Source of the DNA: Pseudobutyrivibrio sp.
GTDB taxonomy: Bacteria > Bacillota > Clostridia > Lachnospirales > Lachnospiraceae
DNA length: 40,319 nt
Assembly: GCA_017934625.1 (NCBI GenBank)
Contig: JAGBJE010000152.1
Span: forward strand, 1-40,319
Direction of reading: 5' to 3'
Part shown: one piece after another, positions 10,275 through 27,955 of the stretch
Layout of the letters: each line of letters begins with the position of its first letter
Position numbering within the stretch: the stretch's first letter is position 1
The notes under the pieces: model-generated
Told to the model about the DNA's origin: nothing
Database searches by the model: none
The model's input: the letters and a program-made list of their open reading frames with translations, nothing else
Position numbers and translations under genes: made by a program

Positions 10275-10359
10275 GCCAGTTACAGTCTCAAGCCTAAGAT
10301 ATTTCCTCTGTCGACTACACGTCTCCGACGGAAACACTTAGAGCTTGATACTTACTGGC
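10275..10359. repeat. Palindromic intergenic element, family P1, copy A
   Basis: 85-nt imperfect inverted repeat between two glycan genes. The ends are GCCAGT and ACTGGC; further in, TCAAGC pairs with GCTTGA, TTTCC with GGAAA and GTCG with CGAC around a small loop. Aligned with the element at 20528-20608 it shares GTTAC, CAAGC and ATATTTC on the left arm and GAAACA, AGCTTG and TAC on the right. Positions that differ between copies differ on both arms, so the stem is kept. No long T run follows on the minus strand, so it is not an ordinary terminator. Confidence 0.72.
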
Positions 10360-10370
10360 TCATTAAATAA

Positions 10371-11204
10371 TTAACTATTCCAATTAGACAGTACGGTATC
10401 GATACGAGTGTTGTCGCCCCAGACGGCTTTGCTGTCATATGGACGGTCTGGGAATGTGCCGTATGCAAGGCTTATCGTAAAGCCATTATCTTCAATGAAT
10501 TTCTCAACACGGTCTGCAAGCTTCATAGGCTTACCAGTGCAGCATTCGATGATTCCTAACACCTCATCCTGCATAGATGCCTTTGCAACCTGCTCACAGA
10601 ACAAATCATAATCAGTAAAATCAAACTGATTCTGACCTGTGGTGAATGGGAATGTGGTATCACCGGCCTCAGCAGCTGCTGTAAGCTTAGAGAAAATACT
10701 GCAGCCCTTATGAGCATTACCTACAATATAATAACCACGTAACCACTGAAGCTTAACATTATTCTCCTTGCAAAGAAGTATAGTAGCCTGGCGCAGTGCG
10801 TTCTTGGCAATTCCATATAAAGATTGTGGCGCACATGGAGTATCTGCCTTAATACAGCCTTCCATAAAGCCAACCTCATGCATTGTACCCATTACGCAAA
10901 GCTTTCTGATTCCAGCCTTACACATTTTCTCAAGGAACTCATAATGATGTGGTAAATCCTTCATGTGATTTTCTGATGCATGTCTAAAGCCATCTCGCCA
11001 TGCAAGGTGAATTACTACATCTGGCTTTTCAAAATAACCATATGGATCATCTAAAGTAAAAATATCTGCATCTATTCTTTTTGCTCTAGCATCAACATCA
11101 TCTGTATGAAAATCTGTTGCAATGACTTCTGCTCCAAGATCAAGCATTGTCTTTACTACACCTTGGCCAATATATCCGTTGGCGCCTGTTACTAAGTATT
11201 TCAT
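10371..11204 (-). CDS. NAD-dependent epimerase/dehydratase (extended SDR family)
   Basis: 277 aa. TGANGYIGQG at residues 6-15 is the Gly-x-x-Gly-x-x-Gly nucleotide-binding motif, VIHLAWRDG follows beta-4, and SLYGIAKNA contains the catalytic Tyr-x3-Lys. It is a nucleotide-sugar epimerase, dehydratase or 4-reductase. The substrate cannot be read from the motifs, and the chain is shorter than the GalE class (~330 aa), so a reductase-like member is possible. The ATG at 11202-11204 has AAGGAG upstream. It is isolated from both neighbours by repeat-filled gaps (10257-10370 and 11205-11316), so it looks like a separate cassette inside the run. Confidence 0.85.
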   Translation of the reverse strand: MKYLVTGANGYIGQGVVKTMLDLGAEVIATDFHTDDVDARAKRIDADIFTLDDPYGYFEKPDVVIHLAWRDGFRHASENHMKDLPHHYEFLEKMCKAGIRKLCVMGTMHEVGFMEGCIKADTPCAPQSLYGIAKNALRQATILLCKENNVKLQWLRGYYIVGNAHKGCSIFSKLTAAAEAGDTTFPFTTGQNQFDFTDYDLFCEQVAKASMQDEVLGIIECCTGKPMKLADRVEKFIEDNGFTISLAYGTFPDRPYDSKAVWGDNTRIDTVLSNWNS

Positions 11205-11261
11205 ATAATACTCCTTCTACTGGGAACGGCTATCGCCTGCCAGCTTATATAAATATCTTAA

Positions 11262-11316
11262 TTCATACCCTCATCAGTCAGCTTCGCTGACAGCTTCCCC
11301 CTAAATAGGGGGAAGC
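11262..11316. repeat. Double-hairpin intergenic repeat, family P2, copy 1
   Basis: The stretch 11262-11297 is identical over 36 nt to 22543-22578. It forms two hairpins: GTCAGC-TTC-GCTGAC (11277-11291) and GCTTCCCCCTA (11293-11303) with TAGGGGGAAGC (11306-11316). The second stem begins directly after the TAG of the 11317-12390 gene, so on the minus strand it could halt transcription or protect the mRNA 3' end. There is no T tract. Confidence 0.85.
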
Positions 11317-12390
11317 CTATTTGAAAAGGTTATCTATCCATGCGTGGATACTGTATTTCTTGCGTACAGCCTCATCTTCTTCGTATGGCTTATCGAGCCA
11401 ATCGGCATCTGGTAATTTGAAGGCCGAATAATCGCCAGTAGCTTCAGCTGCATCAGCCTTAGCTGCTAAGTCTTCCATTACCAGTGCATTACTATCATTA
11501 TAAAACTCATAGTCCTTTAAATATATGTTGTTTGTAACCAACTTTCTCTTGATTCCAAGAGTTTCCATTGTACGCATTGTCAAGCCCTGCTGATTTTCCT
11601 GTGCCAAATCAAGCACAGCCTTTGAGTGTAAGCACATATCTCTAATTGCATCTGCTGCAAATGGTGTAAAGCTTACAATATCCATATCCAAGTCCTTAAC
11701 CAGCTTTGGATCACGGAGCTTTTTGCCTCTATATACACTTGGCGCCAGATAAATTTTCAAGGCAAGCTTTTTATCAGGATTAGCCTTCTTGAATGCCTTA
11801 AAATATCTATATCTAAATGGGAAAAATGCTGAAACACTAACATAATCGTATTTGTATTCTGCAGGTGCTTCAAGCTTATTTCCATCAAAATCATCCGAAT
11901 AAAAAAGTGGTAGCAGCTCATAATCAGTATTATTCTTAGCATCCACCGAATCAAAGGTTGCACGTCTATCAAAGATTCTACCAAGCTCTCCATGATGGCG
12001 CATATTCGCAAACGAATCCCAAGAATAATAGATTGTTTTAGCATCAGGCTTTAGAGCTTGAGCTTTAATATCATTAATAATATCTGGTGTAAGGACATTT
12101 CCCCTAATTACAAGAAAATAATCATAACCTCCAGCTGGCATTTCAGCAATAATCTTATCTCTAAGCTGTTCATTGAACTTTTTAAAGATATTATCCCTCT
12201 TGAAAATCTTTTCAAGATTCTTTAGTATGAGAAACTTTGTCTTTTCTGGTTCCTCATCATAAAATGCCACATTAGCCCCTCTTGCAATCAAATCCTCATG
12301 AATCTTGGACTGATATGCATAGAATTTAGGCATAATGATTAATATATTTTTGTATTTTAAGTCTACTTCATAATCAAAATTAGGTTGCAT
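11317..12390 (-). CDS. Glycosyltransferase-like protein of polysaccharide loci (CgeB/GT-B type)
   Basis: 357 aa. Early sequence KNILIIMPKFYAYQSKIHED suggests a Rossmann-like GT-B N-domain. The C-terminal half contains AVLDLAQENQQGLTMRTMET followed by KRKLVTNN, the layout of CgeB/DUF3880-type and related capsule glycosyltransferases, where the Gly/Arg/Glu cluster binds the nucleotide sugar. Classical GT4 motifs are absent, so the exact family is uncertain. The ATG at 12388-12390 overlaps the stop of the upstream GT4 gene (TAATG), so the two are translationally coupled. The gene ends exactly at repeat P2. Probable role: one transfer step in repeat-unit assembly. Confidence 0.65.
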   Translation of the reverse strand: MQPNFDYEVDLKYKNILIIMPKFYAYQSKIHEDLIARGANVAFYDEEPEKTKFLILKNLEKIFKRDNIFKKFNEQLRDKIIAEMPAGGYDYFLVIRGNVLTPDIINDIKAQALKPDAKTIYYSWDSFANMRHHGELGRIFDRRATFDSVDAKNNTDYELLPLFYSDDFDGNKLEAPAEYKYDYVSVSAFFPFRYRYFKAFKKANPDKKLALKIYLAPSVYRGKKLRDPKLVKDLDMDIVSFTPFAADAIRDMCLHSKAVLDLAQENQQGLTMRTMETLGIKRKLVTNNIYLKDYEFYNDSNALVMEDLAAKADAAEATGDYSAFKLPDADWLDKPYEEDEAVRKKYSIHAWIDNLFK

Positions 12391-13544
12391 TAGTTGTAAA
12401 TCCTTCTTGCTATAGTTTCATAATCAAACTGCAATTTTGCAAATGCAAATGATTTTGCCTTTGTCTGCTCTAATATCATTGGATTATTGCATACATCTGC
12501 AAACACCTTTTCCATATCCTCCACTGTCTCTACGAAGAAATAATTTTCTCCATTACAGTCCGAATATGAGGAATCAGTGTATGCTTCCCATGGATATGTC
12601 ATGTTGGCGCATCCACAGCACATGGCTGTTTCAAATGTGGTAGCCATAGCTCCGGGCTGGCAATATATATCAGTTCCAGCCAAGAACTCTTCTATCTCTT
12701 TATCCACTTTCCATCCCATAAAACGAATACGATTATCGGATTCTAGCTTAGGACGGATAACTCCTTCCATCTCTTTTGGTATGTATCCAAAAATAAAAAG
12801 AGCTAATCGATTATCATTAACCCTCTTAAATGCTTCAAGCAAATCTAAGGTTCTTTTTTCTTCCGTCAAACGTCCAGAATGGGCAAGGATTATTGCATCC
12901 TGAGGCAAGGCATATCTATTAATAATGTTTTGTCTTGCCTGCTTTTGTTCTTCCAGGTTATAGATTCTACCACCCAGAGGTAAAAACTCTAATTTTTCAT
13001 CTGAAATACCATATATGGTCTTAACCCATGTCTTCACTTCAGAAGCAATATAAAATACTTTTTCTACATATGGGATAGCTTTTCTTACATATCTTCCATG
13101 AATGATTTGATAAAAAAGCTTACTATTAAATGTTTTTGCAGAAGTATTAAAATCTGCATGAACATCCATATAAAACTTACAGTCTCTATTTCTTTTTACG
13201 TAATCAGCCACATCCATCATCTCGTAGCCATTTACACCATGGTACAGTATCACCTCAGGCTGCAGCTCTTCCAAATAACCCTTTAGCTTACGACTTTTTT
13301 GAATCTTAGATGTAATAAAATCGTTAATTATATAATCGTAGTCTAATCTAATAAGTCGAATTCCATTTTCAAGTGCTCTATCTTCTTCAACACCTTTTAC
13401 AAGTGTATCACCTTCAAAATGCCAGGTATCAGTTATGATTGTCACGTCATGCCCATCTTTTTTATTTATGTCTAGCAGTACATTTTCCTGATATAACATT
13501 CCTTCGGTAAAATGTGACGCAAGGGCAATATGCAAGATTCGCAT
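12390..13544 (-). CDS. GT4-family glycosyltransferase
   Basis: 384 aa, GT-B fold. N-domain: MRILHIALASHFTEGMLYQE. C-domain: IILAHSGRLTEEKRTLDLLE, the conserved Gly-x-Leu-x-x-Glu-K segment of GT4, then DIYCQPGAMATTFETAMCCG. In this last segment the usual 'E-G-F-G' is replaced by ATTFET, a mild deviation. It would transfer a nucleotide-activated sugar to the lipid-linked intermediate in the cytoplasm. The start at 13542-13544 has AAAAGGAG upstream and lies 3 nt after the preceding stop. It is coupled to the downstream 11317 gene by a TAATG overlap. Confidence 0.88.
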   Translation of the reverse strand: MRILHIALASHFTEGMLYQENVLLDINKKDGHDVTIITDTWHFEGDTLVKGVEEDRALENGIRLIRLDYDYIINDFITSKIQKSRKLKGYLEELQPEVILYHGVNGYEMMDVADYVKRNRDCKFYMDVHADFNTSAKTFNSKLFYQIIHGRYVRKAIPYVEKVFYIASEVKTWVKTIYGISDEKLEFLPLGGRIYNLEEQKQARQNIINRYALPQDAIILAHSGRLTEEKRTLDLLEAFKRVNDNRLALFIFGYIPKEMEGVIRPKLESDNRIRFMGWKVDKEIEEFLAGTDIYCQPGAMATTFETAMCCGCANMTYPWEAYTDSSYSDCNGENYFFVETVEDMEKVFADVCNNPMILEQTKAKSFAFAKLQFDYETIARRIYN

Positions 13545-13547
13545 TAC

Positions 13548-14909
13548 TTATTCTCCTTTTTTGGTCATTTGAAGTATTTCTTCCGCAGAAATGACCTTGT
13601 CAAAGCCTTCTGTACTCTCTTTCTTGAATACAATTCTTATAGTCATCAAAATAAGCTTTACATCAAGTAAGAAGCTATAGTTTTCTATGTACATAAGGTC
13701 AAGCTTGATTTTGTCATAAGCTGATGTGTTGTACTTGCCATATATCTGCGCATAACCTGTCAGTCCGCCCTTGACCTTATTTCTAAATTCAAATTCAGGT
13801 ATTGCCTCTGTGTATTTTTCAACATGCTCTGTTCGCTCAGGACGAGGACCTACAATAGACATGTCACCCTTAATGATATTAAAAATCTGAGGCAATTCAT
13901 CTATTCTGGTTGCTCTTATTACGTGGCCAACCTTTGTAATTCTATCATCATCATCTGTGGCTGGACGCTGCTCTGCATCCTCAACCATACTTCTAAACTT
14001 TAGGATGTCAAAAACCTTACCATCCTTAGTAACACGAGCCTGCTTGTAAAAAACAGCACCGTGATCATCTAGCTTAATTGCAATAGCAACGATAAGCATC
14101 AGCGGTGAAAGAATAACTGCTGCGATAACACAAAGTACAATATCAAAAAATCTCTTAACAAATTCCTGCTCTGGTGTAAGTCCTGTTGTATTGATTGAAA
14201 CAAGTGGTGTATCAAACTGATGAATACCTTCGCCACCACCTATAATCACATCCGAAATCTTTGGAGTGATGTATGTTTCAATACCATTCATATAACAATA
14301 TTTCAAAATATCATTTCTCTGCTCAGCGCTTACATCAGAAATAACTATTCCATCGAATCTTTTCAGCTCTTCGAAAATCTTATCTAAGCCTTCTTCAATA
14401 CTGATAATCTCTTTGATGTTATAGCTATCTGCTCTAGTGTCCATCTTAAGCTTGAGTCCAACAGATTCCTTAACGCCATAAACCATAAGAAGCCTACTTG
14501 CTTTAGCATGGCTATAATATATCCTGAAAAATATAAATACAAAAATACCAGAAATAACATAATCTATTAAAGTTAGCCATACTATAGGCTTTATAGAAAT
14601 CATTCTATTTGCCATAAGTGACAACTGCAGGTATGTAATAACATTAGCGATACCAATGGCTATCCACTGTGAAAACAGTACATCTGCCATTCTAAGTATT
14701 CCATATTTGAAACCATCACATAAATGTATTATTACGAGGTTTAGTATAAAATAAACACCCATGAATACATACTTTCCACGGCCCCACATAGGGTGAAAAT
14801 CATCCCAGTTAAAAATATGATTCCAATAAATATAGAGATAAACCAGTGTAAGAATTACTAACTCTATTAAGCTTTCTATTTTTCTGATTGTATTTTTGTT
14901 TTTCACCAT
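13548..14909 (-). CDS. Undecaprenyl-phosphate sugar-1-phosphate transferase (WbaP/CpsE-like), second copy
   Basis: 453 aa. Five N-terminal membrane segments (to ~130), a CoA-binding-like middle domain (~135-245), then the bacterial sugar transferase domain from KRFFDIVLCVIAAVILSPLM. That domain carries FYKQARVTKDGKVFDILKFRSM, TRIDELPQIFNIIKGDMSIV and GPRPER. These enzymes start glycan assembly by moving hexose-1-phosphate (often Glc or Gal) from a UDP-sugar to undecaprenyl phosphate. A paralogue with the same architecture lies at 35834-37222, so the locus has two initiating enzymes. The ATG overlaps the stop of neither neighbour, but its 3' end is 3 nt from the GT4 start, and its 5' end overlaps the upstream gene's TAA (TAATG). 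Confidence 0.93.
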   Translation of the reverse strand: MVKNKNTIRKIESLIELVILTLVYLYIYWNHIFNWDDFHPMWGRGKYVFMGVYFILNLVIIHLCDGFKYGILRMADVLFSQWIAIGIANVITYLQLSLMANRMISIKPIVWLTLIDYVISGIFVFIFFRIYYSHAKASRLLMVYGVKESVGLKLKMDTRADSYNIKEIISIEEGLDKIFEELKRFDGIVISDVSAEQRNDILKYCYMNGIETYITPKISDVIIGGGEGIHQFDTPLVSINTTGLTPEQEFVKRFFDIVLCVIAAVILSPLMLIVAIAIKLDDHGAVFYKQARVTKDGKVFDILKFRSMVEDAEQRPATDDDDRITKVGHVIRATRIDELPQIFNIIKGDMSIVGPRPERTEHVEKYTEAIPEFEFRNKVKGGLTGYAQIYGKYNTSAYDKIKLDLMYIENYSFLLDVKLILMTIRIVFKKESTEGFDKVISAEEILQMTKKGE

Positions 14910-15841
14910 TATTGCTCCTTAGTATACTTGTCCCTAATAATGTACTGAGGTGAATTATTACCGTTGATAAATATTCTACCAACATATTCACCTAACATTC
15001 CAAGCATAAGCATCTGCAAACCACCCACTATCATTATTGCTGACATGATAGATGTCCAGCCTTCAACATCACCATTCATAAGTGTTCTTATTACTATAAT
15101 TAATAATAATATAAAGCCTATAAAGGTAGCTACTACACCAAGAACTGATGTAACTCTAAGTGGCTTTACAGAAAATGAAATAAATCCATCAAACCATAAG
15201 CCAACTAATTTGCTCAGAGTATATGTACTCTTTCCAACTTCTCTTGACTTATGCTCTACATACACATTGGCCAAATTATCTGTAGATCTAAGGATTAGTC
15301 CCCAAATATAAGGGTATGCTCCCTGATACTTAATCATTTCATCTCTAACAAAGCTTGTGATTACAAAATAACTGTTAAGCTCAATATCCTTTGGCTTTCC
15401 AATTAAAGATGTAACCATCTTATCATTTAGGTCATGGCCAAATTTCTTAAAAGCTGTATCTTTCTTCTGATGGTATTTTGCAAATACTGCATCATAGCCC
15501 TTTTCTATCTCATCTAAAAGCTTATGCGCTTCTGCTGGTGGATTCTGACCATCATCATCAAGCACCACCATGTAGTCACCTGTAGCATTTGTAAGGCCGC
15601 ACATTGTTGCTCCATCCTGGCCGAAGTTCTTAGCCAGGTTGATTGCAACTACTCGCTCATCCTCGTCTGCCAGCGATTTAAGCACACTAAAGGTGTTGTC
15701 TTTTGAACCATCATTTACAAGAACTATCTCAATATTGTAGCTCTCTCTAGGAAATTCTTTACAGATATCCTTCACAACATCTGATACAGTGTCCTGTGAA
15801 TAATAGCATGGTATTACAAAGGATATTTTTTTATTAAACAT
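14909..15841 (-). CDS. GT2 polyprenyl-phosphate glycosyltransferase (DPM1/GtrB-like)
   Basis: 310 aa. The GT-A domain (SFVIPCYYSQDTVSDVVKDI, LVNDGSKDNT, VVLDDDGQNPP) is followed by two membrane helices at roughly 230-252 and 262-284 and LGMLGEYVGRIFINGNNSPQ. It probably makes a polyprenyl-phosphate sugar donor for extracytoplasmic transfer. It shares architecture with 9294-10256 but the sequences differ clearly, so they probably handle different sugars. AGAGGAG sits 8-9 nt before the ATG. It lies between the Wzy-like gene and the initiating transferase. Confidence 0.9.
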   Translation of the reverse strand: MFNKKISFVIPCYYSQDTVSDVVKDICKEFPRESYNIEIVLVNDGSKDNTFSVLKSLADEDERVVAINLAKNFGQDGATMCGLTNATGDYMVVLDDDGQNPPAEAHKLLDEIEKGYDAVFAKYHQKKDTAFKKFGHDLNDKMVTSLIGKPKDIELNSYFVITSFVRDEMIKYQGAYPYIWGLILRSTDNLANVYVEHKSREVGKSTYTLSKLVGLWFDGFISFSVKPLRVTSVLGVVATFIGFILLLIIVIRTLMNGDVEGWTSIMSAIMIVGGLQMLMLGMLGEYVGRIFINGNNSPQYIIRDKYTKEQ

Positions 15842-15845
15842 ATTT

Positions 15846-17090
15846 CTAGTACTCCTCTTGTAGTAATGTAAACATCAATAAGTATGTATAATAAGGTGTC
15901 ATGTACTTATAGTACATATCTAATCCCATATCAATAAACACAAAAGATATGATGAATGATAAGCAAAGAATCTTTGCTTCTTTCTTATGTGTCTTAATTG
16001 TATCGATAATTAGTTTTACTGGGAACCAATAGTATGCTATAAATCCGAAAATTCCAAAGCTAAAAAGCAACTCCATGTAATTCATGTGAGTCTGAATATT
16101 TCTATACGCAATCTCTGTACCAATTCTATATTCTTCCAGCTTTGAATATGGCATTTGGATAAATGAATAAAATCCATGTCCAAATAAAGGAGCCTCCCAA
16201 AAGTGCTTTTTAAAAGCATCCATTACTGCCAAACGCTGCCCTGTGCTTGTATGCAAATCAAATTCTGTGGTATCAGAAAATGCTGTAAATACCTCTACAA
16301 TTCTATAACCAATAACATCGTACAACATAGGAATAGCAAAAACTGCAACAGCTATCACTGCTATAAAAGCTACTAAAAACAACAAATACTTTCTTAGTTC
16401 TTTTTTGTCCTTGGCATTTGAAAGAAGTATTATTCCTATTACTATTATAAGAGGAAGTGCTGAAGACTTTGAGCCTGTCAAAATAATCGCTACTATTCCA
16501 AATATAATGAATGGCAAGTACTTTTTATATTCCTTATGTACTACAACAGAATATATCATTGGAATAAGCATTAACAAATGCAGATTTCCCGCATCAATAA
16601 CAGTGCCTCCTGGTGTCTTACCAACTCTTACAAAATCTCCTGCAAAAAATTCACGCCAATAATCATCAAAGACTAATCCTGTAAAAAATGTTGCAATTAC
16701 CATAAACGCACCCACAGGTGCTAATATTTCTACTATCTGATCTCTGTTATGCCATAATATCTCATAGCAAAGTAGTGCTGGTCCAATAGTAAGGATAGTA
16801 TACCGCATGCTATACATATCATTATCTATAAACAGCTTAAAATGTCCGTAAACAAAAACTATTAGCTGAAAAATCACTAGCCAAAGTATAGCTACATTAA
16901 AAATACTAGCTTTTGTCTTTTGAAAATCCTGCTTTGTCAAAATACAGCAGAAAACAAATCCAATAAAATCTGCAAACAGATTCATGATAACAGCGTAATT
17001 CTTTGTTACACCAAAATCACATCTGACATAAATCATTAATGCAATTAGAACTATGGATATTAATTTTTTGTTCTTATTGATAAAAGCCAT
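15846..17090 (-). CDS. O-antigen ligase/polymerase family membrane protein (Wzy-like)
   Basis: 414 aa with 10-12 predicted membrane segments. The large extracytoplasmic loop near residues 265-320 contains STGQRLAVMDAFKKHFWEAP, then LFGHGFYSF. The Arg before and the G-H-G-F motif after are typical of Wzy_C/WaaL proteins. It would polymerise flipped repeat units or ligate them to an acceptor on the outer face of the membrane. It is the only clear polymerase in the window, which makes it the partner of one of the two flippases. GGAG lies upstream of the ATG at 17088-17090. Confidence 0.82.
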   Translation of the reverse strand: MAFINKNKKLISIVLIALMIYVRCDFGVTKNYAVIMNLFADFIGFVFCCILTKQDFQKTKASIFNVAILWLVIFQLIVFVYGHFKLFIDNDMYSMRYTILTIGPALLCYEILWHNRDQIVEILAPVGAFMVIATFFTGLVFDDYWREFFAGDFVRVGKTPGGTVIDAGNLHLLMLIPMIYSVVVHKEYKKYLPFIIFGIVAIILTGSKSSALPLIIVIGIILLSNAKDKKELRKYLLFLVAFIAVIAVAVFAIPMLYDVIGYRIVEVFTAFSDTTEFDLHTSTGQRLAVMDAFKKHFWEAPLFGHGFYSFIQMPYSKLEEYRIGTEIAYRNIQTHMNYMELLFSFGIFGFIAYYWFPVKLIIDTIKTHKKEAKILCLSFIISFVFIDMGLDMYYKYMTPYYTYLLMFTLLQEEY

Positions 17091-17104
17091 TATTATTCTC
17101 CAAT

Positions 17105-18658: not shown

Positions 18659-19806
18659 TGTTTTTCGATTCTTGATTCAAAAAACTTATTTTCTGAAGTT
18701 TTCATATCTTGCTGAAGCATCCATATCAGAATGTAAAATATTCCCACATATAAAGGCCCTAATAAGCTTGCAATCAAATATCTTATTCCAAAAATCTTTC
18801 TATGATAAACACACATCATAATCCATACAAGCACTGCAACTATTGGTATAAACAGTACCGATAATGATGTTAGTGAGCTTGCTCCTATTGATACAGCTGC
18901 AATAGGAAGCATATATGCAGTCTTTACCTCTCTTTTGTAAGCCTTTATCAGATAAAGCATAAAGAATGGAATTGCTATTACACATAATATGGCTTTACCC
19001 TGCCACAATGCTCCCAGCAATCTAAAGGTAATAGAATAATGTGAATATAATCCAAATATATGGGCAACTGACAATATAATTAAAAATATAAACCTGTCAG
19101 CATAGCTATGGAACAAAAAGCCAGCTATGTAATAGAACACAGCGTATGCTAAGAGAAGTAAAAACAATGGCAATATCGTATGATAAACTGTTGTCACTTC
19201 AAAGCCTGTCGTAGCAGAAAGCATTGCCACATATGTGCCCCATGATGCAACTGCGCGCTTTTCCTGAACATTTGGCATCGTACCATCAATATAATTCACA
19301 TATGAGATAGTATCACTTTCGATTGTATCTTTACTGGTTACTACATAATCATAATCATCATATGACCATTCATTAATCTCATAGGCAAATGCACCATATA
19401 ACTGAATCAGAAGTAAAATTGCAAAGGTTATCGCATATACGATAACAAACTTATCCTTTTTCACTTTTAATTTTGTATCTGCCAGCTTAAAACGTATCTT
19501 TGTGTAGACCCTTTTATATTTACGAATATCAAACACAAGCCACACGCAACCAAGTATTGCCATCACTATGCCATACACCCACAGCAATAACGAAAATGCC
19601 CCATGCACAGGCTCCTGAACAGTACACCAATTCTGCAACCACTCTACTATGGTAAACAAAGTGTAAAAGATTGCCAGATTACTGAAGAAGCCTACCAGAT
19701 AATCGGCAATCCAATTTGTCCTTGCCCTATATGTAATTAGTCTGCCTACTGCTATTGGCACTAATGTAAAGTGCAATAAAAAGGCTAATCCTCTAATTAA
19801 TATCAT
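18634..19806 (-). CDS. Multipass membrane protein, possible N-terminal half of a split GT-C-like gene
   Basis: 390 aa with about 8-9 hydrophobic segments. It starts at an ATG overlapping the neuA stop (TAATG at 19804-19808). A soluble loop near residues 145-190 contains YEINEWSYDDYDYVVTSKDT, an acidic patch of the kind found in GT-C-like proteins; the overall look recalls DUF6077 proteins of Lachnospiraceae, a tentative call from memory. The chain ends in RIEKQWVLKWFH soon after its last helix. The overlapping next frame continues with MVSLKYFFSM and four more helices, so the two halves may once have been, or may be, one ~900-residue protein. Function unknown; probably a surface-glycan transferase. 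Confidence 0.62.
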   Translation of the reverse strand: MILIRGLAFLLHFTLVPIAVGRLITYRARTNWIADYLVGFFSNLAIFYTLFTIVEWLQNWCTVQEPVHGAFSLLLWVYGIVMAILGCVWLVFDIRKYKRVYTKIRFKLADTKLKVKKDKFVIVYAITFAILLLIQLYGAFAYEINEWSYDDYDYVVTSKDTIESDTISYVNYIDGTMPNVQEKRAVASWGTYVAMLSATTGFEVTTVYHTILPLFLLLLAYAVFYYIAGFLFHSYADRFIFLIILSVAHIFGLYSHYSITFRLLGALWQGKAILCVIAIPFFMLYLIKAYKREVKTAYMLPIAAVSIGASSLTSLSVLFIPIVAVLVWIMMCVYHRKIFGIRYLIASLLGPLYVGIFYILIWMLQQDMKTSENKFFESRIEKQWVLKWFH

Positions 19807-20507
19807 TAGTTATTTCCTAATTTCTTTTTCATCATAAATTCTGCAATTTCAAAATCGATTGGATAATCAATATCGATTGAATCAGCTCTGCTCATAATAT
19901 AAGCATAAGTGTTGTCACAATAGTAAGTACGGCTTTCTTTTAGGAGCTGATAATCCAAAATATAAATTGCACCATTTGGGATATAGTAAGTAGCGTTTGT
20001 CTGGCGATTAGCTACATTTGAGCCTTTAGCGCCAAACCCGGCATTCTTAATACGTCCCTTTTCATCCATGGTATGATACCATCCCACTGGACACTCAGCC
20101 TCTGTAAATGAGATAAGTGTAGTGGCATCATCCCTTTCAAACTGCTCTATAGCTTCGTTAATGTTTTTCTCATCACGAAGTGGAGCTGTTGGTAGAAGCA
20201 CCATAAACTTATCTACCTTTTCTCCAGTCTCATTCATTACAAACTCTGCTGCATGAAGGTATACATCTACAGCTGATGCTGTATCACTGGCAAGCTCTGC
20301 AGGTCGCATAAATGGAACCTCAGCGCCAGCCTCACGTGCAACACGAGCTATGTCCTCATCATCTGTAGTAACGATTACTCTATCTATTTTATCTGCTTTA
20401 AGTGCAGCCTCTATTGTGTGAGCAATCAGAGGCTTGCCACAAATTTCTTTTATGTTTTTGCCTGGGACGCCTTTGGAGCCACCCCTAGCTGGTATAAATG
20501 CTATCAT
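19806..20507 (-). CDS. neuA: CMP-nonulosonate cytidylyltransferase (NeuA/LegF family)
   Basis: 233 aa. IPARGGSKGVPGKNI at residues 5-19 is the CTP-binding P-loop-like motif of CMP-sialate and CMP-legionaminate synthetases. VPFMRPAELASDTASAVDVY and LLPTAPLRDEKNI are further family blocks. It activates a nine-carbon 2-keto sugar with CTP, the last step before transfer. The neighbouring NeuB-like synthase supports this. The dehydratase/aminotransferase pair upstream suggests that the substrate is a legionaminic-acid-like sugar, not Neu5Ac. GAGG lies before the ATG at 20505-20507, and the stop overlaps the next gene by TAATG. Confidence 0.9.
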   Translation of the reverse strand: MIAFIPARGGSKGVPGKNIKEICGKPLIAHTIEAALKADKIDRVIVTTDDEDIARVAREAGAEVPFMRPAELASDTASAVDVYLHAAEFVMNETGEKVDKFMVLLPTAPLRDEKNINEAIEQFERDDATTLISFTEAECPVGWYHTMDEKGRIKNAGFGAKGSNVANRQTNATYYIPNGAIYILDYQLLKESRTYYCDNTYAYIMSRADSIDIDYPIDFEIAEFMMKKKLGNN

Positions 20508-20527
20508 TTTCCTCTATCCTTTAGTCC

Positions 20528-20608
20528 GGCTGTTACGATAACAAGCATTATATTTCTCCGCTCATAGATTATTCGCTTGAGAAACATAATAGCTTGTTAT
20601 CTACAGCC
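20528..20608. repeat. Palindromic intergenic element, family P1, copy B
   Basis: 81-nt inverted repeat between neuB and neuA. The main arms are 20538-20558 and 20579-20600, which match over 21 of 22 positions with one bulged base and one mismatch. The loop is 20 nt. Outer ends GGCTGT and ACAGCC also pair. Same family as 10275-10359 and probably 26663-26721. It splits two genes of one pathway by 150 nt in a region where most genes overlap. Confidence 0.82.
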
Positions 20609-20657
20609 TCATCTGAAAGCTTGTTACACTATCAAGCACATTATAAATCATTATATA

Positions 20658-21710
20658 CTACGATAGGTCACCCCACTGGAAGATATCGTCGTATTTAACG
20701 TCATGCTTCAATGTACGGCCAAGGACCATCTCGTAATACTTAGGTGAGATGCCGGTGCCTGGGCGCTTGTAATCAAGGTCGTCCATTGTAAGTACGTGGC
20801 CTGCTGGCATATCGTGCTTTGCGACGATTGAACGCTTGAATTCCTCACGACGCTTCTCGTCCTCAACTACAACCTTGCGATAGCTTCCAAGCATGTTATA
20901 TCCACTTCTAGCTGCATCACAAATAGCCTTAAGCTCTGCAGGATCTGCACTAACCTTGTGATCCCAGCCTTCCATGTTCTTATCCATTGTAAAATGCTTC
21001 TCGATAATGCAAGCATTCTTTGCAATACTCATGATAGGTGCAACTGTACCGATTGTGTGGTCAGAATATCCAACTGGATAATCAAATACCATGTTGTACA
21101 TATCCATATTGTTAAGGTTAACAATCTCGTCTGTTGGTGGGTACATTGATACACAATGAAGGATTGCTATTTCGTGACATCCACCTTCCTCAAGTGCCTG
21201 GATAGCTGCACATACATCATCCATACCTGTAAGACCAGTTGAAATAACAACAGGTACACCCTTGCTTCCTACATGCTTAAGGAATGGGATGTTCTCAACG
21301 TCAAGTGAAGCAATCTTAAGGAATGGAACGTGAAGCTCATCAACAAGCATATCTGCTCCAGCCATTGAAAATGGTGTTGAACAAAAATCAATATCTAACT
21401 CATCACAGTACTTCTTAAGCTCAATGTGCTGCTCCTTAGATACTGCATACTTTTCCATAATAGACTTAAGTGTGTAGTCTGTACGATTGCGATAATCATC
21501 ACCAAGGAAATAGTTATCCTCATATTTCTTCTTAGAGAAAAGATCATCTACTGTCCAAGACTGAAGCTTAACAGCATCAGCGCCACACTCCTTCGCTGTC
21601 TTTATAAGTGTTTTAGCTAAATCCATATCACCATTGTGGTTAGCTCCAAGCTCTGCAATGACGTATGGTCTTTGATTTCCTGCAACTAAATCTGCGTAAT
21701 TAAATCTCAT
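20658..21710 (-). CDS. neuB: Nonulosonic acid synthase (NeuB/LegI/PseI family)
   Basis: 350 aa from the ATG at 21708-21710, with GGAGGA 5 nt upstream; a longer frame to 21734 would start inside the upstream gene. The N-terminal TIM barrel carries YVIAELGANHNGDMDLAK and DAVKLQSW. The C-terminal antifreeze-like SAF domain (~285-345) carries SIVAKHDMPAGHVLTMDDLD and RPGTGISP. The enzyme condenses phosphoenolpyruvate with a six-carbon amino sugar to give a nine-carbon 2-keto acid. Members for sialic, legionaminic and pseudaminic acid look alike; the LegB/LegC-type genes nearby favour a legionaminic-type substrate. It overlaps the upstream GT2 gene by 11 nt. Confidence 0.92.
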   Translation of the reverse strand: MRFNYADLVAGNQRPYVIAELGANHNGDMDLAKTLIKTAKECGADAVKLQSWTVDDLFSKKKYEDNYFLGDDYRNRTDYTLKSIMEKYAVSKEQHIELKKYCDELDIDFCSTPFSMAGADMLVDELHVPFLKIASLDVENIPFLKHVGSKGVPVVISTGLTGMDDVCAAIQALEEGGCHEIAILHCVSMYPPTDEIVNLNNMDMYNMVFDYPVGYSDHTIGTVAPIMSIAKNACIIEKHFTMDKNMEGWDHKVSADPAELKAICDAARSGYNMLGSYRKVVVEDEKRREEFKRSIVAKHDMPAGHVLTMDDLDYKRPGTGISPKYYEMVLGRTLKHDVKYDDIFQWGDLS

Positions 21711-22542
21711 ATGAATCCTCCATTTGAATATCACTCCACCAGTATCCCTGATGGTTATTTGAAAGCGTAAGTGATGCTTTGTTCAGCTCACTTAGCTTAG
21801 TTGACAAATGTTTAAAATAATCGTAACGCTTACCAAGATTCTCATAGTGAGTACGTTTAACATCATATTCCTTGCTTAAGTCTCTGGTAGTGCCAGCAGT
21901 ATTATCATCATAGATTCTATAGATGGTTGCGGCGTTATCTACGTATGAACCGCCTCCTATGTCCATGATTATCCTACTAAATAGATACCAATCAAATACC
22001 GCCGCTGCGCCTTCATTAAGACTATCTAGAAATTCATTATTTATTCTTGATAACCTAATGCCGGTATTAGACAATCCCAGGAAATTAGCCTGAGCTATTG
22101 TCCTAATATCCTCTACTGTATCAGGTAATGATTTAAACACATCCTCACCTTTTTCAGTAACGAAATTATTATAAAAGAATACTCTGTCTTTGTCTAATTC
22201 AAAAGCCTTTATATAGCCAGCCATTCTGTTAGGTGCTAACATATCGTCTGCGTCAACTAAAACCAACTGGTCATAACCCATTTCCTTGGCAATTCTTAGC
22301 ATCTCTATTCGAGTGCCGGCAATGCTAAGCTTTTTATCACTTATATCTTCCACATGAATGTGGATATTTTTTACAGTTTTATTAATCTCTATACTTACTT
22401 CTTCAAGCTCTTCTTTTGTGTAATTATCGTTAATTATCAACAAGTCGAATTCCTTACAGGTTTGTTTATCCACAGAATTCAGTAAGTCTTGTAGATAAGG
22501 ATGGGCTTGTTTGTAGATTACGGTTGATAATGCTGTTTTCAT
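21700..22542 (-). CDS. GT2-family glycosyltransferase
   Basis: 280 aa. Starts MKTALSTVIYKQAHPYLQDL, with LVLVDADDMLAPNRMAGYIK giving the DxD metal-binding motif near residue 98. There is no membrane segment, so it is a soluble inverting GT-A enzyme that probably extends the repeat unit. Its leader is unusual: the 36-nt block of repeat P2 ends directly against the ATG (22540-22542), and the GAGGG inside that block is the only ribosome site in reach. It overlaps the start of neuB, so expression of the synthase is tied to this leader. Confidence 0.85.
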   Translation of the reverse strand: MKTALSTVIYKQAHPYLQDLLNSVDKQTCKEFDLLIINDNYTKEELEEVSIEINKTVKNIHIHVEDISDKKLSIAGTRIEMLRIAKEMGYDQLVLVDADDMLAPNRMAGYIKAFELDKDRVFFYNNFVTEKGEDVFKSLPDTVEDIRTIAQANFLGLSNTGIRLSRINNEFLDSLNEGAAAVFDWYLFSRIIMDIGGGSYVDNAATIYRIYDDNTAGTTRDLSKEYDVKRTHYENLGKRYDYFKHLSTKLSELNKASLTLSNNHQGYWWSDIQMEDSYEI

Positions 22543-22598
22543 TTCATACCCTCATCAGTCAGCTTCGCTGACAGCTTCTCCCTACTTAGTGAGAAGCC
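22543..22598. repeat. Double-hairpin intergenic repeat, family P2, copy 2
   Basis: 22543-22578 is identical to 11262-11297 (36 nt). Hairpins: GTCAGC-TTC-GCTGAC (22558-22572), then GCTTCTC (22574-22580) with GAGAAGC (22591-22597). The second hairpin reaches into the end of the 22586-23788 gene and supplies its last codons (Leu-Ala-Ser-His) and its stop. The other end abuts the start codon of 21700-22542, so the repeat bridges two genes completely. Confidence 0.87.
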
Positions 22599-23788
22599 AA
22601 GTAGGTGTCCATGTAGTCCATTAGTTTCTTTTTGGAAAAGTGCTCCTGGTTGTAGGCTAAGGCGTTTTCACCCATTTGTAGGCGAAGTGGCTTAGGAAGG
22701 TTTCGCATGGCGATGATGTTCATAGCCAATGCTCTTGCATCTCCGATATCAGAACACATTCCACATTTTGCTTCTGCAATTACTCTTGCTGTTTCGCCCT
22801 TAGCTGAAGCAATAATAGGCATTGCACAGGCCATATAGGACTGAAGCTTTGCTGGAATTGTCTTTGCAAAAAGCTCATCATCAGCGAAAGAAATAAATGC
22901 CGCGTCTCCCTTTGCTAAAAGTCCAGGAACCTCGGTAGGCTTTACTCTACCTGCAAATTCAAATAAGTCCCACACTCCCGCTTCAGTTATGCTTTCCTTA
23001 AAGCTTTCTCTAGCTCTACCATCACCAACGATAGTAAACCTAATATCTTTTACACCCTCGTTTCTAATGATAGCAGCTGCCTGTGGTAATATCTCTAACC
23101 CTTGAGCCTGTCCAATATTACCTGTAAATATTACATTGAAGCCTCTGTGCTCTACAGCTGGCTTTGGCTCATAGAATTCTTCTGCATACTGAGGCATAAA
23201 ACTAACCTTATCCTGCTCATCCTCATCTACGTATTTACGAATTGACTCTACAAAGCTAGGACTTGTTCCCCAAATATGTGTGCAACCCTTATATATCTTT
23301 CTCACCATTCGCTCTATAGGCTTAACCAGTAATGGCGAATGAATTCCTGTAATCATTTCTACATTTTCAGGCCACAAATCCTGCACATATAAGTAACAAG
23401 GTATATGGTGTTTCTTAGCATAAGCAACACCCACCTTGCACTGATTCATAGGGGATGTTTCAAACATGTATACTTCATCGGCCTTTATACGTGTAAACAT
23501 GTTCCAGAAAAATCCGAAGAATGGAAAGCTAAAATAATTAAGTACTAATCCAAGCTTACCATTTCCCCTTGGTATAAGAGGAATACGATAAACCTCCACC
23601 CCATTAATTACTTCATGTCTCTTTTTGAAAAGGCCGTAGCCATCAAATATTTTTCCCTCTGGATAATTAGGAAGTCCAGTCACCGCTGTAACCTTGTAAC
23701 CTCTTTTTACCCACTCAAATGCCATATCATTTATTCTGAATTGCTCAGGATAAAAGTATTGGCAAATAATCAATATATGTTTTTCCAT
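22586..23788 (-). CDS. GT4-family glycosyltransferase (WbuB/WcaI-like)
   Basis: 400 aa. MEKHILIICQYFYPEQFRIN and GLPNYPEGKIFDGYG are characteristic of WbuB/WcaI-type GT4 enzymes, which often add N-acetyl-fucosamine, fucose or similar sugars. QDLWPENVEMITGIHSPLL and VIFTGNIGQAQGLEILPQAA follow, the latter the nucleotide-binding start of the C-domain. The exact sugar cannot be inferred. GAGAG lies upstream of the ATG at 23786-23788. The last codons come from a dispersed repeat, so the C-terminal tail may differ from relatives. A 10-bp hairpin lies just upstream, between it and the DUF2142 gene. Confidence 0.88.
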   Translation of the reverse strand: MEKHILIICQYFYPEQFRINDMAFEWVKRGYKVTAVTGLPNYPEGKIFDGYGLFKKRHEVINGVEVYRIPLIPRGNGKLGLVLNYFSFPFFGFFWNMFTRIKADEVYMFETSPMNQCKVGVAYAKKHHIPCYLYVQDLWPENVEMITGIHSPLLVKPIERMVRKIYKGCTHIWGTSPSFVESIRKYVDEDEQDKVSFMPQYAEEFYEPKPAVEHRGFNVIFTGNIGQAQGLEILPQAAAIIRNEGVKDIRFTIVGDGRARESFKESITEAGVWDLFEFAGRVKPTEVPGLLAKGDAAFISFADDELFAKTIPAKLQSYMACAMPIIASAKGETARVIAEAKCGMCSDIGDARALAMNIIAMRNLPKPLRLQMGENALAYNQEHFSKKKLMDYMDTYLASH

Positions 23789-23825
23789 TTATTCTCTCAA
23801 ATCTATCTATATTTTAAACGCACAA

Positions 23826-23851
23826 ATATCGCCCGTAGCTTCGGGCGATAT
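23826..23851. terminator. Hairpin between the DUF2142 and GT4 genes; weak terminator or processing site
   Basis: Perfect 10-bp stem ATATCGCCCG (23826-23835) with CGGGCGATAT (23842-23851) and a 6-nt loop. On the minus strand it is followed by TTTGTGCGTTTAAAA, a broken T tract. It comes 5 nt after the TAG of the DUF2142 gene. It could cause partial termination, lowering expression of the genes to the left, or act as an mRNA stability element. Confidence 0.6.
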
Positions 23852-23856
23852 AAGTC

Positions 23857-25521
23857 CTAGAATTCAAAAGGCGCTGGAAGCCCATCCCTTAAATGGAATA
23901 GGAAATTCAACAAGCCGCACATTGAAGAAATAAGTGCTATATTTTGGATATATATAAGTGCCAGTGCAAGCTTATTCTCCTTAGCATCCGTTCCTAAACC
24001 AATGCACATACACATGTATACTGGAATCAGATATCTAAATGAAATCTGAATTCGTTGACTTCCTTCCTGTGGTGTAAATCTTGTCATGCAGCCAATGAAA
24101 ATGGCAATCACACACATGATCAAGCCAATGCCGATTACAACCATCTGCCATTTTTTAATTCGCTTACCCTTGATAAAAATCATTCCAATAATCAAGCATG
24201 CAAGCATAATGATTACACATGCCATAGGAACCTGAGCGTTAAGGAATACATGTCCTAGCTCACGTCCAACAATATGATTAATGTTATACCAGAAATCTAC
24301 TTGAATTCCTTCCCATGCAAATTTTAGTGTCTCTAATTTGTGAGCCTGGAAATATTCTAAAGTAAGTGCGTTTCTAGTTTCATCTGTCTCGATTCCACCA
24401 GAACGCTTCCATACTGTCACTTGCATTATCTTATAATAATACTTTGTAATAATCTTGGAGCCTACCACTACAACTCCAGCACCCATTACAGCTAGGATTC
24501 CGTATTCATACCACTTCTTACTGAGCGCTACATCTGTCCACCACTTTTTAATTGGAATTGCAAAAATCCATACAGCAAACAATGCATAAACTGTCTTATT
24601 TGGAATAAGTATAATTACACAGCCGGCAAGAATAATTAAATCCCATGCATGTAGCTTCACATGAGGCTGGCTGTAATAAAGGCAAAGGGTAAACAATGCC
24701 AACGAGAACAGGATACTCATATTATCGTAAGAATAGGAACTGCATAAATGAAGTACTCCTGGGAATAAAGCAAATGTAAAGAACTGATGCTTTCCTACCG
24801 GAAGAAGCTTTAGTGCAATATAACCTGCTATAATCAGGGATATTGAATTAAAAAATCTTCCCATGAATATTACGCCTGCAAATCCAAAACCAAGCAGTCT
24901 TGCAAGTGTAATTCCAGCGCCAGATACTAAATACCTAGATGCCTTAGATGGTGCTATATATACTTCCACCTCATCCTGCAATTCTTCTGAATGCTTGAAG
25001 AAATTACCCTGAGCCAATATTGAATACTGATATGGGAATGTAACATCCAAATATGGCATCATATAATAATCTTCACCGCGCATATAGAAGAAAGATTCAT
25101 CCTGAACCCAACTACCTAGCTTACTTGTATCCATGCTAAGATTATGGTCTTTCTTTCCAAGCATAATGTTGGAGCAATGATATGCACTATAGTAATGCTG
25201 CACCTCATCTGGGCCAGAAATAGGCGGCATTACAAGCTGCATACAAAACGTCCAACCAATTGCCATGATTACAAACAGTCTAGGATATGACCAGTTTTTG
25301 TTTAAAACCAATATTCTTGCCAAATAAACTGTGAGTGCAATCATAACAATAAATATAATTGCAAAATATAAATTATATCTCTTGGTAGCAGTTAAATTGA
25401 CACAATTTGTAAAGAAAAACACAAGCGCTGCAATAATTGATACTGCTGCAACAGCTACTGTACCAATCTGCATCCCCTTTTCCCTATTCATATCCGAAAA
25501 ATAAGATTTTATTTTTTCCAC
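23857..25521 (-). CDS. DUF2142-family multipass membrane protein (GT-C-like)
   Basis: 554 aa with a GTG start at 25519-25521, preceded by AAAGGGA at a good distance. About 12-13 hydrophobic segments. VMPPISGPDEVQHYYSAYHC near residue 120 is the signature of DUF2142 proteins, with the Pro-Asp-Glu-x-x-His in the first big outer loop where GT-C enzymes have their catalytic acid. Known members occur in surface-polysaccharide loci and are thought to be polyprenyl-P-sugar-dependent transferases; direct biochemical evidence is scarce. It lies 17 nt after the nucleotidyltransferase gene. Confidence 0.82.
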   Translation of the reverse strand: MEKIKSYFSDMNREKGMQIGTVAVAAVSIIAALVFFFTNCVNLTATKRYNLYFAIIFIVMIALTVYLARILVLNKNWSYPRLFVIMAIGWTFCMQLVMPPISGPDEVQHYYSAYHCSNIMLGKKDHNLSMDTSKLGSWVQDESFFYMRGEDYYMMPYLDVTFPYQYSILAQGNFFKHSEELQDEVEVYIAPSKASRYLVSGAGITLARLLGFGFAGVIFMGRFFNSISLIIAGYIALKLLPVGKHQFFTFALFPGVLHLCSSYSYDNMSILFSLALFTLCLYYSQPHVKLHAWDLIILAGCVIILIPNKTVYALFAVWIFAIPIKKWWTDVALSKKWYEYGILAVMGAGVVVVGSKIITKYYYKIMQVTVWKRSGGIETDETRNALTLEYFQAHKLETLKFAWEGIQVDFWYNINHIVGRELGHVFLNAQVPMACVIIMLACLIIGMIFIKGKRIKKWQMVVIGIGLIMCVIAIFIGCMTRFTPQEGSQRIQISFRYLIPVYMCMCIGLGTDAKENKLALALIYIQNIALISSMCGLLNFLFHLRDGLPAPFEF

Positions 25522-25538
25522 TATTAATCCCTTTCAAA

Positions 25539-26585
25539 CTAGCCAAGCTTTCCAGTTAATCTGCGTTCCATCTTGCTAAGCTCATCCAGCTGCCCCATAT
25601 CCATCCATGTATTTTCGTTAATAGGATATACGCCAACCTTTTTGCCATCGTCCTTTAGCCTATTAATAATATCAGGGAAACCTACAAACTCACCATCCTT
25701 GATATAATCAATAACCTCCGGCTCCACTATATATATTCCAGTGTTTGTAAAGAAACTAAACTCTGGCTTTTCCTTCATATCTAAAATATTGCCATGCTCA
25801 CCAAACTCTACCACGCCATAAGCAACCTGAAAGTTTCTAAGAGAGCATACCATTGTTATCAAATTACCTTCCTTTTTGTGATGCTCATAAATCTTTGAAT
25901 AGTCCTCTTCGATTAAGATATCACAATTTGTAAGGATAAATGTTTCATCAATCTTGCCTCTTAAAAGAGCAAGTCCACCGCCTGTTCCAAGAGGAGTATC
26001 CTCATCTACAAAATCAATGTGATAAGGTCTTTCAGCCTCTCCAAAATAAGACTTAATCATATTTTTCTTATGATTAACAATCATAATCATTCTATTAATT
26101 CCATATTCTGCAAAGCTATCCATAATAAGCTCTGCAATTGGCTTCTCACCAACAGGAATAAGTGGCTTTGGAAGGATTCGTGTATATGGATAAAGGCGCG
26201 TCCCCTTCCCCCCTGCCATCATAACTACAGGGGTGCTAAGCTCCGAATGCTTCTTATAATGATTCTCACTCCAAAAGACTGTATCGATTACATGCCCTTC
26301 GTCATCAACTATAGGGAGGCCTTCAATATTATGACGATAAAGGAAATTACGAGCATCTTCCTTCTCTTCTTCCTTGAGACTCCTTGGCTTATAGTTTGCA
26401 ATCAACTTAACAGGCTCATTTAAATCACCGCCTGATAAAATATATCTACGCACATCACCCTCTGAAAGTGCTGCAAGCAGCTTATTGTCATCATCCACAA
26501 CAAAAACTGTGCGGCGGCTGCTTGCATCAAATGTACGCATGGCATGTAAAATTGTGTCATCTTCTTTAATGAATACATTTTCCAT
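25539..26585 (-). CDS. CBS-domain nucleotidyltransferase (PtmE-like sugar-1-phosphate nucleotidyltransferase)
   Basis: 348 aa. Residues 1-115 form a CBS pair (DDTILHAMRTFDASSRRTVF, then IEGLPIVDDEGHVI). The catalytic domain begins VVMMAGGKGTRLYPYTRILP with PKPLIPVGEKPIAE, the signature of glucose-1-phosphate thymidylyl/guanylyltransferases, and has ILTNCDILI as the metal-binding Asp segment. The same CBS-plus-transferase layout is found in Campylobacter PtmE, which makes GDP-glucosamine for legionaminic acid. With LegB- and LegC-like genes directly upstream, that role is likely here. The CBS pair suggests control by an adenosine nucleotide. GGAG is upstream of the ATG. Confidence 0.88.
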   Translation of the reverse strand: MENVFIKEDDTILHAMRTFDASSRRTVFVVDDDNKLLAALSEGDVRRYILSGGDLNEPVKLIANYKPRSLKEEEKEDARNFLYRHNIEGLPIVDDEGHVIDTVFWSENHYKKHSELSTPVVMMAGGKGTRLYPYTRILPKPLIPVGEKPIAELIMDSFAEYGINRMIMIVNHKKNMIKSYFGEAERPYHIDFVDEDTPLGTGGGLALLRGKIDETFILTNCDILIEEDYSKIYEHHKKEGNLITMVCSLRNFQVAYGVVEFGEHGNILDMKEKPEFSFFTNTGIYIVEPEVIDYIKDGEFVGFPDIINRLKDDGKKVGVYPINENTWMDMGQLDELSKMERRLTGKLG

Positions 26586-26662
26586 AAGTTATCCACTCCG
26601 CAATCCGGAATTGTCACTCCCAGATTGGTCATCTAAATTTTTTACTCCATAAAATTCTACGC

Positions 26663-26721
26663 TAACAATAAAATATTTCTTTCAATCACTAGATGTTCAT
26701 TCCAGAAATATTTTATTGTTA
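26663..26721. repeat. Perfect 18-bp inverted repeat, family P1, probable copy C
   Basis: Arms 26663-26680 (begins TAACAATAAA, ends ATTTCT) and 26704-26721 are perfect reverse complements around a 23-nt loop. The stem is almost all A/T. ATTTCT at the inner left end, AGAAA at the inner right and GTTATCT at the outer right match copy B, so I place it in the same family. It lies 9 nt after the stop of the LegC-like gene. No T run follows on the minus strand. Confidence 0.78.
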
Positions 26722-26729
26722 TCTGAATT

Positions 26730-27896: not shown

Positions 27897-27955
27897 ATAA
27901 AACACCTCTAATCCGCACTACAATAGCTAACACAAGCATACAATGACACGCAAAT

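Follow-up and report, generated by a model that had tools for sequence, protein, structure and literature searches.

A genus-wide family of dispersed hairpin elements in Pseudobutyrivibrio, found in operon gaps and in the loops of terminator-like stems

Introduction

Dispersed palindromic repeats, of which REP, ERIC and BOX are examples, are known for the most part from bacteria outside the group considered here, and both their means of spread and their use to the cell are still argued. We describe a family of hairpin elements recognized in a 40,319-base stretch of DNA from Pseudobutyrivibrio sp. (assembly GCA_017934625.1, contig JAGBJE010000152.1), hereafter called the window. Three intergenic palindromes in the window, designated A, B and C, lie between genes encoded on the minus strand.

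Several described systems come close to these palindromes. Repeats tagged with GTAG are reported from Proteobacteria, Cyanobacteria, Chloroflexi and the Planctomycetes-Verrucomicrobia-Chlamydiae (PVC) group (PMC3733652), while the present family belongs to Pseudobutyrivibrio. SPRITE elements of the pneumococcus are described as terminator-like and rich at the 3' ends of genes, a position shared by the terminator copies of the present family (PMC3049150). ERIC is reported to be co-transcribed with its neighbours, its orientation mattering for the stability of the mRNA, and NEMIS RNA has been linked to RNase III (PMC2229807). We found no description of such repeats in Pseudobutyrivibrio, Butyrivibrio or the Lachnospiraceae, and none of insertion into terminator loops, in literature searches that had most subscription journals outside their reach.

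Results

Three hairpins belong to one dispersed family

Each palindrome folds far better on the sense strand than do its shuffles. Minimum free energies are -40.5 kcal/mol for A (z -5.7), -40.5 for B (z -8.3) and -19.9 for C (z -4.7), and none of the 200 dinucleotide shuffles made per element reached the native energy. An earlier note, made from the letters of the window alone, had pointed out palindromes at these three places, and they are real. Its limits for C, 26663-26721, describe a perfect 18-bp stem, the only perfect inverted repeat among nine listed with arms within 120 bases, but this is the inner stem of a larger element; an outer stem, ATAAAATTC/GAATTTTAT, widens C to about 26649-26733.

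Blast searches of the same genome (3.16 Mb in 310 contigs) returned 8 further matches for A and 29 for B (E <= 4.3e-4 for both), at least three of the latter being short pieces, and 3 for C (E <= 3.1e-5). A covariance model of 99 positions, flanks included, was trained on 32 copies and finds 73 matches in this genome (E <= 0.01). A, B and C are in the training set, so their own scores against the model prove nothing, and C is tied to the family instead by its blast relatives L030 and L032, which have the usual family ends GTTACG..CTAC. The model finds copies in all 19 of 19 Pseudobutyrivibrio genomes, from 1 to 130 in each, and these counts are lower bounds, since only part of the candidates was scored. 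It finds none in 12 genomes from other families of the order. A survey of 150 Lachnospiraceae genomes, one per genus, with stricter filters and few candidates scored per genome, gave a match in the element's own genome only. A pattern with 23 fixed letters identified 28 stretches among 84,980 GTDB species genomes, every one of them titled Pseudobutyrivibrio. A, B and C are members of one dispersed family of hairpins of roughly 75 bases that is found throughout this genus. The earlier note had proposed this kind of model search, and would have given up its reading had there been neither further copies nor covariation; both were found.

The window has no match in Rfam at gathering score, whether Rfam includes ERIC, NEMIS and BOX being unchecked, and matches at seven element loci all fall far below the gathering scores. 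Spread by phage, plasmid or virus was considered and rejected: B has no blast match in phage and plasmid collections, and the exact pattern is absent from viral contigs.

Anatomy and covariation

Read on the plus strand of the window, the unit begins with a copy-specific outer stem, at least about 5 bp long, which is followed by an asymmetric internal loop with unpaired TTAC on the 5' side and unpaired TA on the 3' side. Within TTAC/TA lies a stem of the form G-nnn-ACAAGC / GCTTGT-nnn-C, in which CAA/TTG is nearly invariant; further inward come a second stem, for example ATTATATTTCT/AGAAATATAAT, and a small apical hairpin. The outer arms are complementary inside one copy and unlike between copies, and terminal inverted repeats common to all copies are absent. 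On the opposite strand, usually that of the mRNA, one foot reads GTAG in 53 of the 72 copies from the same genome, GTAA in 9 and something else in 10, while the other foot reads CGTAAC in 49 of the 72. One copy, L094 1212-1383, has about 75 extra bases in its apical loop, apparently able to form a hairpin themselves. Six close pairs of elements occur in the genome, four inverted (C305, C244, C270 and C91) and two tandem (C297 and C301).

Pairing is retained although the copies differ in sequence, as the earlier note had read from three of them. In a MAFFT alignment of 32 copies, evaluated over a structure of 31 pairs, 86.9% of cells are paired (69.0% in shuffles) and 168 cells are double changes (46.4 in shuffles). 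The 72 copies from the same genome were aligned by the model, which leans to structure, and are not independent of one another; here 91.2% of cells are paired against 63.6% in shuffles, with 541 double-change cells against 134.0, both sides changed in 28 of 31 pairs against 24.6, and a covariation score of 0.640 against 0.152. The outer stem by itself has 98.1% of its cells paired and shows changes on both sides in 5 of 5 pairs.

Placement and length of the outer stem

Genomic context was assigned from gene calls by a simple longest-open-reading-frame script, with copies of identical sequence or identical flanks counted once. Among 125 distinct copies from this and other genomes of the genus, co-directional genes flank 72 whose model strand is antisense and 15 whose model strand is sense; 23 are convergent, 2 divergent and 13 unclear. 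Two further genomes, G011 and G009, gave 122 matches, from which 2 short ones and 3 with too little flank were dropped to leave 117; context for 115 of them shows 88 co-directional, 20 convergent and 5 divergent sites. A small background sample of 52 element-free gaps divides 39, 8 and 5. Against this background no clear enrichment of convergent gaps is seen, and the scarcity of divergent sites is a tendency without a significance test.

Copies in operons stand close before the gene that follows, most of them with the same orientation. Their outer stem has a median length of 5 bp and reaches at least 9 bp in 1 of 71, whereas the median for convergent copies is 12 bp, with at least 9 bp in 19 of 23. 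As a control, arms paired across different copies reach 9 bp in 0.7% of combinations. Long outer stems occur also in 7 of the 15 co-directional copies of opposite orientation. The long outer stem in convergent contexts resembles that of a terminator, with the core as its loop. A T run stands on the right of 9 of the 23 convergent copies, an A run on the left of 4 and both in 3. Of 71 operon copies, 1 has a T run. The earlier statement that none of the three palindromes has a T tract is correct by eye for A and B, but does not extend to the family, some relatives lying within T-flanked terminators.

Neighbouring genes, 36 downstream and 60 others, match many unrelated families, the commonest of which is matched by four of these genes, and many of the neighbours are housekeeping genes. 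A role as a regulon-specific leader is not supported, the neighbours being so diverse and functionally unrelated.

Cores are present, absent or inverted at shared sites

The 3' end of the IMP dehydrogenase gene could be read at 27 of 30 loci. Twelve have the element, two of these reversed, within about six different outer stems. In genomes G007 and G038 the site is a bare terminator, CCAACAGG-TTAC-AT-TA-CCTGTTGG, while in the window's own genome, G018 and G032 it reads CCAGTAGG-TTAC-core-TA-CCTACTGG; in G014 the terminator is also bare, but its loop is different. Bare and filled forms of this terminator show that the core, bounded by TTAC and TA, is either there as a whole or missing, a difference that gain or loss alike would produce. 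At a second orthologous site, readable in 22 places, 5 have the element, 7 have 15-37 bases between the flanks and 10 have longer gaps, several of which hold other hairpins or plain terminators as judged by eye. Here the core of G014 is cleanly inverted in place: 79 of 81 bases fit the reverse complement of a relative, compared with 38 for the direct strand.

Other hairpins were seen in similar positions. Another family, with core TTTTCAATGAGTATAGGCTTGACCGATATTGAAAA, occupies terminator loops at both of these orthologous sites (L189 2311-2390 and L202 2403-2480); L223 resembles it by eye, without a blast match. One species has an unrelated hairpin within its IMP dehydrogenase terminator (L205 2388-2464), a single copy in the DNA examined. 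A further dispersed hairpin, terminator-like and about 105 nt long, GCAGGTTTTG...CAAAACCTGC, occurs at L182 1071-1175, with copies 75-96% identical to it at L137, L046, L012, L299 and L169.

Matching of both flanks among 268 distinct copies yielded 154 pairs of elements, 123 in the same orientation and 31 discordant, some of the latter from sites with two inverted elements. Even distant species have sites in common: the window's genome and G011 have 20 such pairs (at 18 places), the window's genome and G009 have 8, and G011 and G009 have 9, numbers that have no null comparison. Orientation is the same in 30 of these 37 pairs, and the core exceeds the 95th percentile of random copy pairs (81% identity, mean 69%) in only 3. 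For 82 same-orientation pairs with flanks 80-98.5% identical, core identity is bimodal: 47 pairs have 95% or more, 29 have 80% or less and 6 fall between. In outer stems at same-orientation sites 455 base pairs are unchanged, 141 show double Watson-Crick changes, 13 a single change and 1 a change of another kind; the corresponding counts for inner stems are 1,933, 366, 176 and 65, the pairs being non-independent. The bimodal identities fit replacement or re-insertion of whole units better than slow compensation. Selection on the folded form, which the earlier note considered the simplest reading, is supported by the covariation, but at shared sites a large part of the variation looks as if whole hairpins had been replaced (141 double against 13 single changes in outer stems, and bimodal core identity).

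Strand asymmetry and orientation

In the 26 pairs of the outer and middle stems, mismatches on the model strand of 139 distinct copies are A.C in 109 cases and G.T in 5. The excess of A.C on this strand means that the opposite strand tolerates wobble, and so points to a strand-specific fold of these stems. Within the 139-copy set the ratio is 21 to 1 at convergent genes and 11 to 0 where the transcript is on the other strand. For G011 and G009 it is 63 to 8 in the usual orientation, 11 to 1 at convergent genes and 7 to 5 in the opposite orientation, and the two sets together give 125 to 9, 32 to 2 and 18 to 5, respectively. Because it is seen also at convergent and opposite-orientation sites, the asymmetry is for the most part a property of the element itself, and a local effect is no more than hinted at. 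The same sites weaken in-place selection on mRNA as its source, which had first been inferred from copies of the window's own genome, and disfavour a transcription-linked mutation bias.

Orientation is related also to replication. In G011 and G009, 84 co-directional copies are in line with the fork, 77 in the usual orientation and 7 reversed. At convergent genes of these genomes orientation follows the replication arm, as inferred from sampled GC skew, by 14 to 3 (binomial p 0.013, three near-origin copies omitted). The few head-on co-directional sites divide into one that goes with the arm and two that go with the gene.

The elements of the window and their neighbours

Coordinates are collected in Table 1. 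Element A has the outer stem GCCAG/CTGGC, the internal loop TTAC/TA (plus-strand letters) and the sense-strand tag GTAA; relative L158 lacks an element in the orthologous gap. Element B has the outer stem GGCTG/CAGCC and the tag GTAG. Five other genomes also have an element in the gap of B, with a quite different core in two of them, G011 (L300) and G009 (L333). Beside B stands a stub of a second element; a complete hairpin occupies the same place in relative L161, so the core was either lost or never gained here. An element is present in G011 at the site orthologous to C.

Table 1. Elements of the window and the genes that flank them.
Feature	Position	Strand	Remarks
Element A	10275..10359	-	Intercistronic hairpin, family-2 glycosyltransferase / epimerase gap
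Element B	20528..20608	-	Gap between cytidylyltransferase (CTP_transf_3) and NeuB genes
Stub of second element beside B	20619..20637	-	GCTTG-TTAC-ACTAT-CAAGC
Element C	26649..26733	-	A/T-rich subfamily, nucleotidyltransferase / DegT-type aminotransferase gap
Glycosyltransferase family 2 gene, downstream of A	9294..10256	-	Start 10256 picked by ribosome-binding site, by eye
NAD-dependent epimerase gene, upstream of A	10371..11204	-	
Cytidylyltransferase gene, downstream of B	19806..20507	-	
NeuB-family gene, upstream of B	20658..21734	-	
Nucleotidyltransferase (CBS + NTP_transferase) gene, downstream of C	25539..26585	-	
DegT/DnrJ/EryC1/StrS aminotransferase gene, upstream of C	26730..27905	-	3' end overlaps outer arm of C

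Search for a mobilizing enzyme

A REP-associated transposase, suggested in the earlier note, was looked for, and what was found does not fit. The Y1 transposase family PF01797 (Y1_Tnp) has no match in 19 of 29 genomes of the genus, including the copy-rich G012 (101 copies), G018 (87), G007 (65) and G014 (60). Other copy-rich genomes do have matches: G003 (130 copies, 3 matches), G002 (109 copies, 1 match), G013 (104 copies, 4 partial matches) and G015 (98 copies, 2 matches). The single Y1_Tnp match in the window's own genome, at L046 1495-3124, is of IS200/IS605 type, an interrupted TnpA-like gene adjoining what by our reading is a TnpB-like gene. Ten of the 18 loci with Y1 matches were examined by nhmmer, and none of the ten contains the element.

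Discussion

A, B and C are probably copies of a dispersed, non-autonomous, REP-like hairpin element, restricted to the genus, that has been moved or exchanged at the hairpins of transcript ends and operon gaps. Of the readings offered in the earlier note, a dispersed palindrome resembling REP or a miniature inverted-repeat transposable element is the best supported, given many copies, a single genus and unrelated neighbours, but the statement that it seeded this locus was too narrow for a family spread over the genomes of the genus. We infer mobility, the substrate on which it acts and any effect on mRNA as follows. The core would move or be exchanged as a folded single strand, of DNA or of RNA, which a putative enzyme would bring into the loops of hairpins that end transcripts or separate cistrons. 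It may also be lost, or inverted in place. Operon copies would be kept, or merely tolerated, in the orientation that gives the best-folding transcript, and some may have been co-opted as RNA elements. Such an RNA role is plausible from the biased orientation of the operon copies and from their position close before the following gene, by analogy with what is reported for ERIC and NEMIS (PMC2229807).

Several observations weigh against mobility. The candidate empty sites yield no clean filled and empty pair with a target duplication, the sites being too diverged, and bare or empty sites could be losses. Pattern matches over 870 kb include no operon-type flanks closed by a short loop that could be recognized by eye, and the search for a transposase or other mobilizer returned none. 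The letters beyond the outer stem, TAGTCCG / CTCATCTAA, are conserved in many operon copies, which suggests that the outer stem there belongs to the element and not to the host site. The five apical pairs reverse the mismatch bias (G.T 23, A.C 9), as might be expected only if the apical part were no true stem. Part of the low core identities at shared sites comes from sites with two tandem elements, and unlike cores could be old insertions that have drifted to saturation under structural constraint.

The alternative that survives best is an mRNA element inherited site by site, an intercistronic hairpin that would process, stabilize or insulate polycistronic mRNA and strengthen terminators at gene ends. 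The orientation bias in operons (72 against 15, and 77 against 7 in G011 and G009) speaks for it, as do the wobble that outer and middle stems tolerate on the usual sense strand, the sites common to several species, the low share of divergent copies (2 of 125 and 5 of 115, against 5 of 52 in the background, significance untested) and an A.C to G.T asymmetry that is weaker in the opposite orientation (18 to 5, against 125 to 9). But the asymmetry persists at convergent genes (32 to 2) and leans the same way when the transcript is reversed (18 to 5), the apical pairs lean the opposite way, the neighbours are functionally unrelated, cores are often unlike at shared sites, and the orientation at convergent genes goes with the replication arm by 14 to 3, a bias that need not arise from transcription alone. 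On this balance we regard inheritance at each site as a doubtful explanation of the family.

A bolder version of mobility would make the family a novel type of mobile element, a strand-specific cassette of folded single strand that homes to the loops of terminators and intercistronic stems at a TTAC/TA boundary, where machinery unrelated to RAYT exchanges it repeatedly as a unit. We think this unlikely; if it were true, sites and orientation would stay the same from species to species and only the hairpin would be replaced.

A classical GTAG-tagged REP family moved by RAYT, a Y1 transposase that is strand-specific on single-stranded DNA, would explain the sense-strand GTAG before 53 of 72 hairpins and the inverted arrangement of 4 of 6 close pairs; placement, too, agrees with the account in PMC3733652, and Y1_Tnp occurs in the copy-rich G003, G002, G013 and G015. 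It is nevertheless highly improbable, with PF01797 lacking in 19 of 29 genomes, ten Y1 loci free of elements, the window genome's own Y1 match beside a TnpB-like gene, and elements longer than REPs. Most improbable of all are passive palindromes, terminators or quasi-palindromes kept perfect by template-switch correction, immobile and functionless, for while the double changes with few intermediates in orthologous outer stems and the in-place inversion are what such correction would leave, the asymmetric TTAC/TA loop, the CAA/TTG bases and the dispersed consensus exceed what correction of arms alone would give, and a common core is conserved across 19 genomes.

The family is large, structured, confined to one genus and mostly without the expected Y1 transposase, and its nesting in terminator loops is unusual. 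Because cores are present or absent as units, are in one case inverted in place and differ at shared sites, gain, loss and exchange can be tested between close strains, and an effect in operons can be tested with simple reporters.

Comparison with known repeat systems

Intrinsic bidirectional terminators resemble the convergent copies in their long outer stem and, in some, in runs of A and T, but the loop is taken up here by a conserved hairpin of about 70-80 nt, and operon copies lack a T tract (1 of 71 has one). ERIC and NEMIS/Correia elements are likewise long hairpins, and are listed with terminal inverted repeats and target duplications (PMC2229807); in the present family no terminal inverted repeats are common to all copies, and the candidate empty sites showed no clean duplication. 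The pneumococcal BOX, RUP and SPRITE repeats are also dispersed and structured, nearly confined to one species group and without a clear link to gene function (PMC3049150). Compared by description and by Rfam only, the present family differs from them in that no modular boxA/B/C and no fixed T tract are seen, and in having a core within terminators whose outer stem varies.

The likeness to GTAG REPs and REPINs with their RAYT proteins is the most extensive. As described in PMC3733652 and PMC8266576, these are dispersed extragenic palindromes with GTAG at one foot, sometimes in inverted pairs, with strand-specific features and wobble in their stems, and the placement between unidirectional and convergent genes given in PMC3733652 matches that of the present family. 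The strand and replication-arm biases further recall elements of IS200/IS605 type. GTAG REPs, however, are given as 20-40 nt long, so that A (85), B (81) and C (about 85) exceed them some two to four times; the G of GTAG lies here inside a further, copy-specific stem; and a Y1 transposase is lacking in two thirds of the genomes, with no element at ten Y1 loci. By the tests made, the hairpin family of Pseudobutyrivibrio is not part of the GTAG REP/RAYT group, near as it stands to that group in form and placement.

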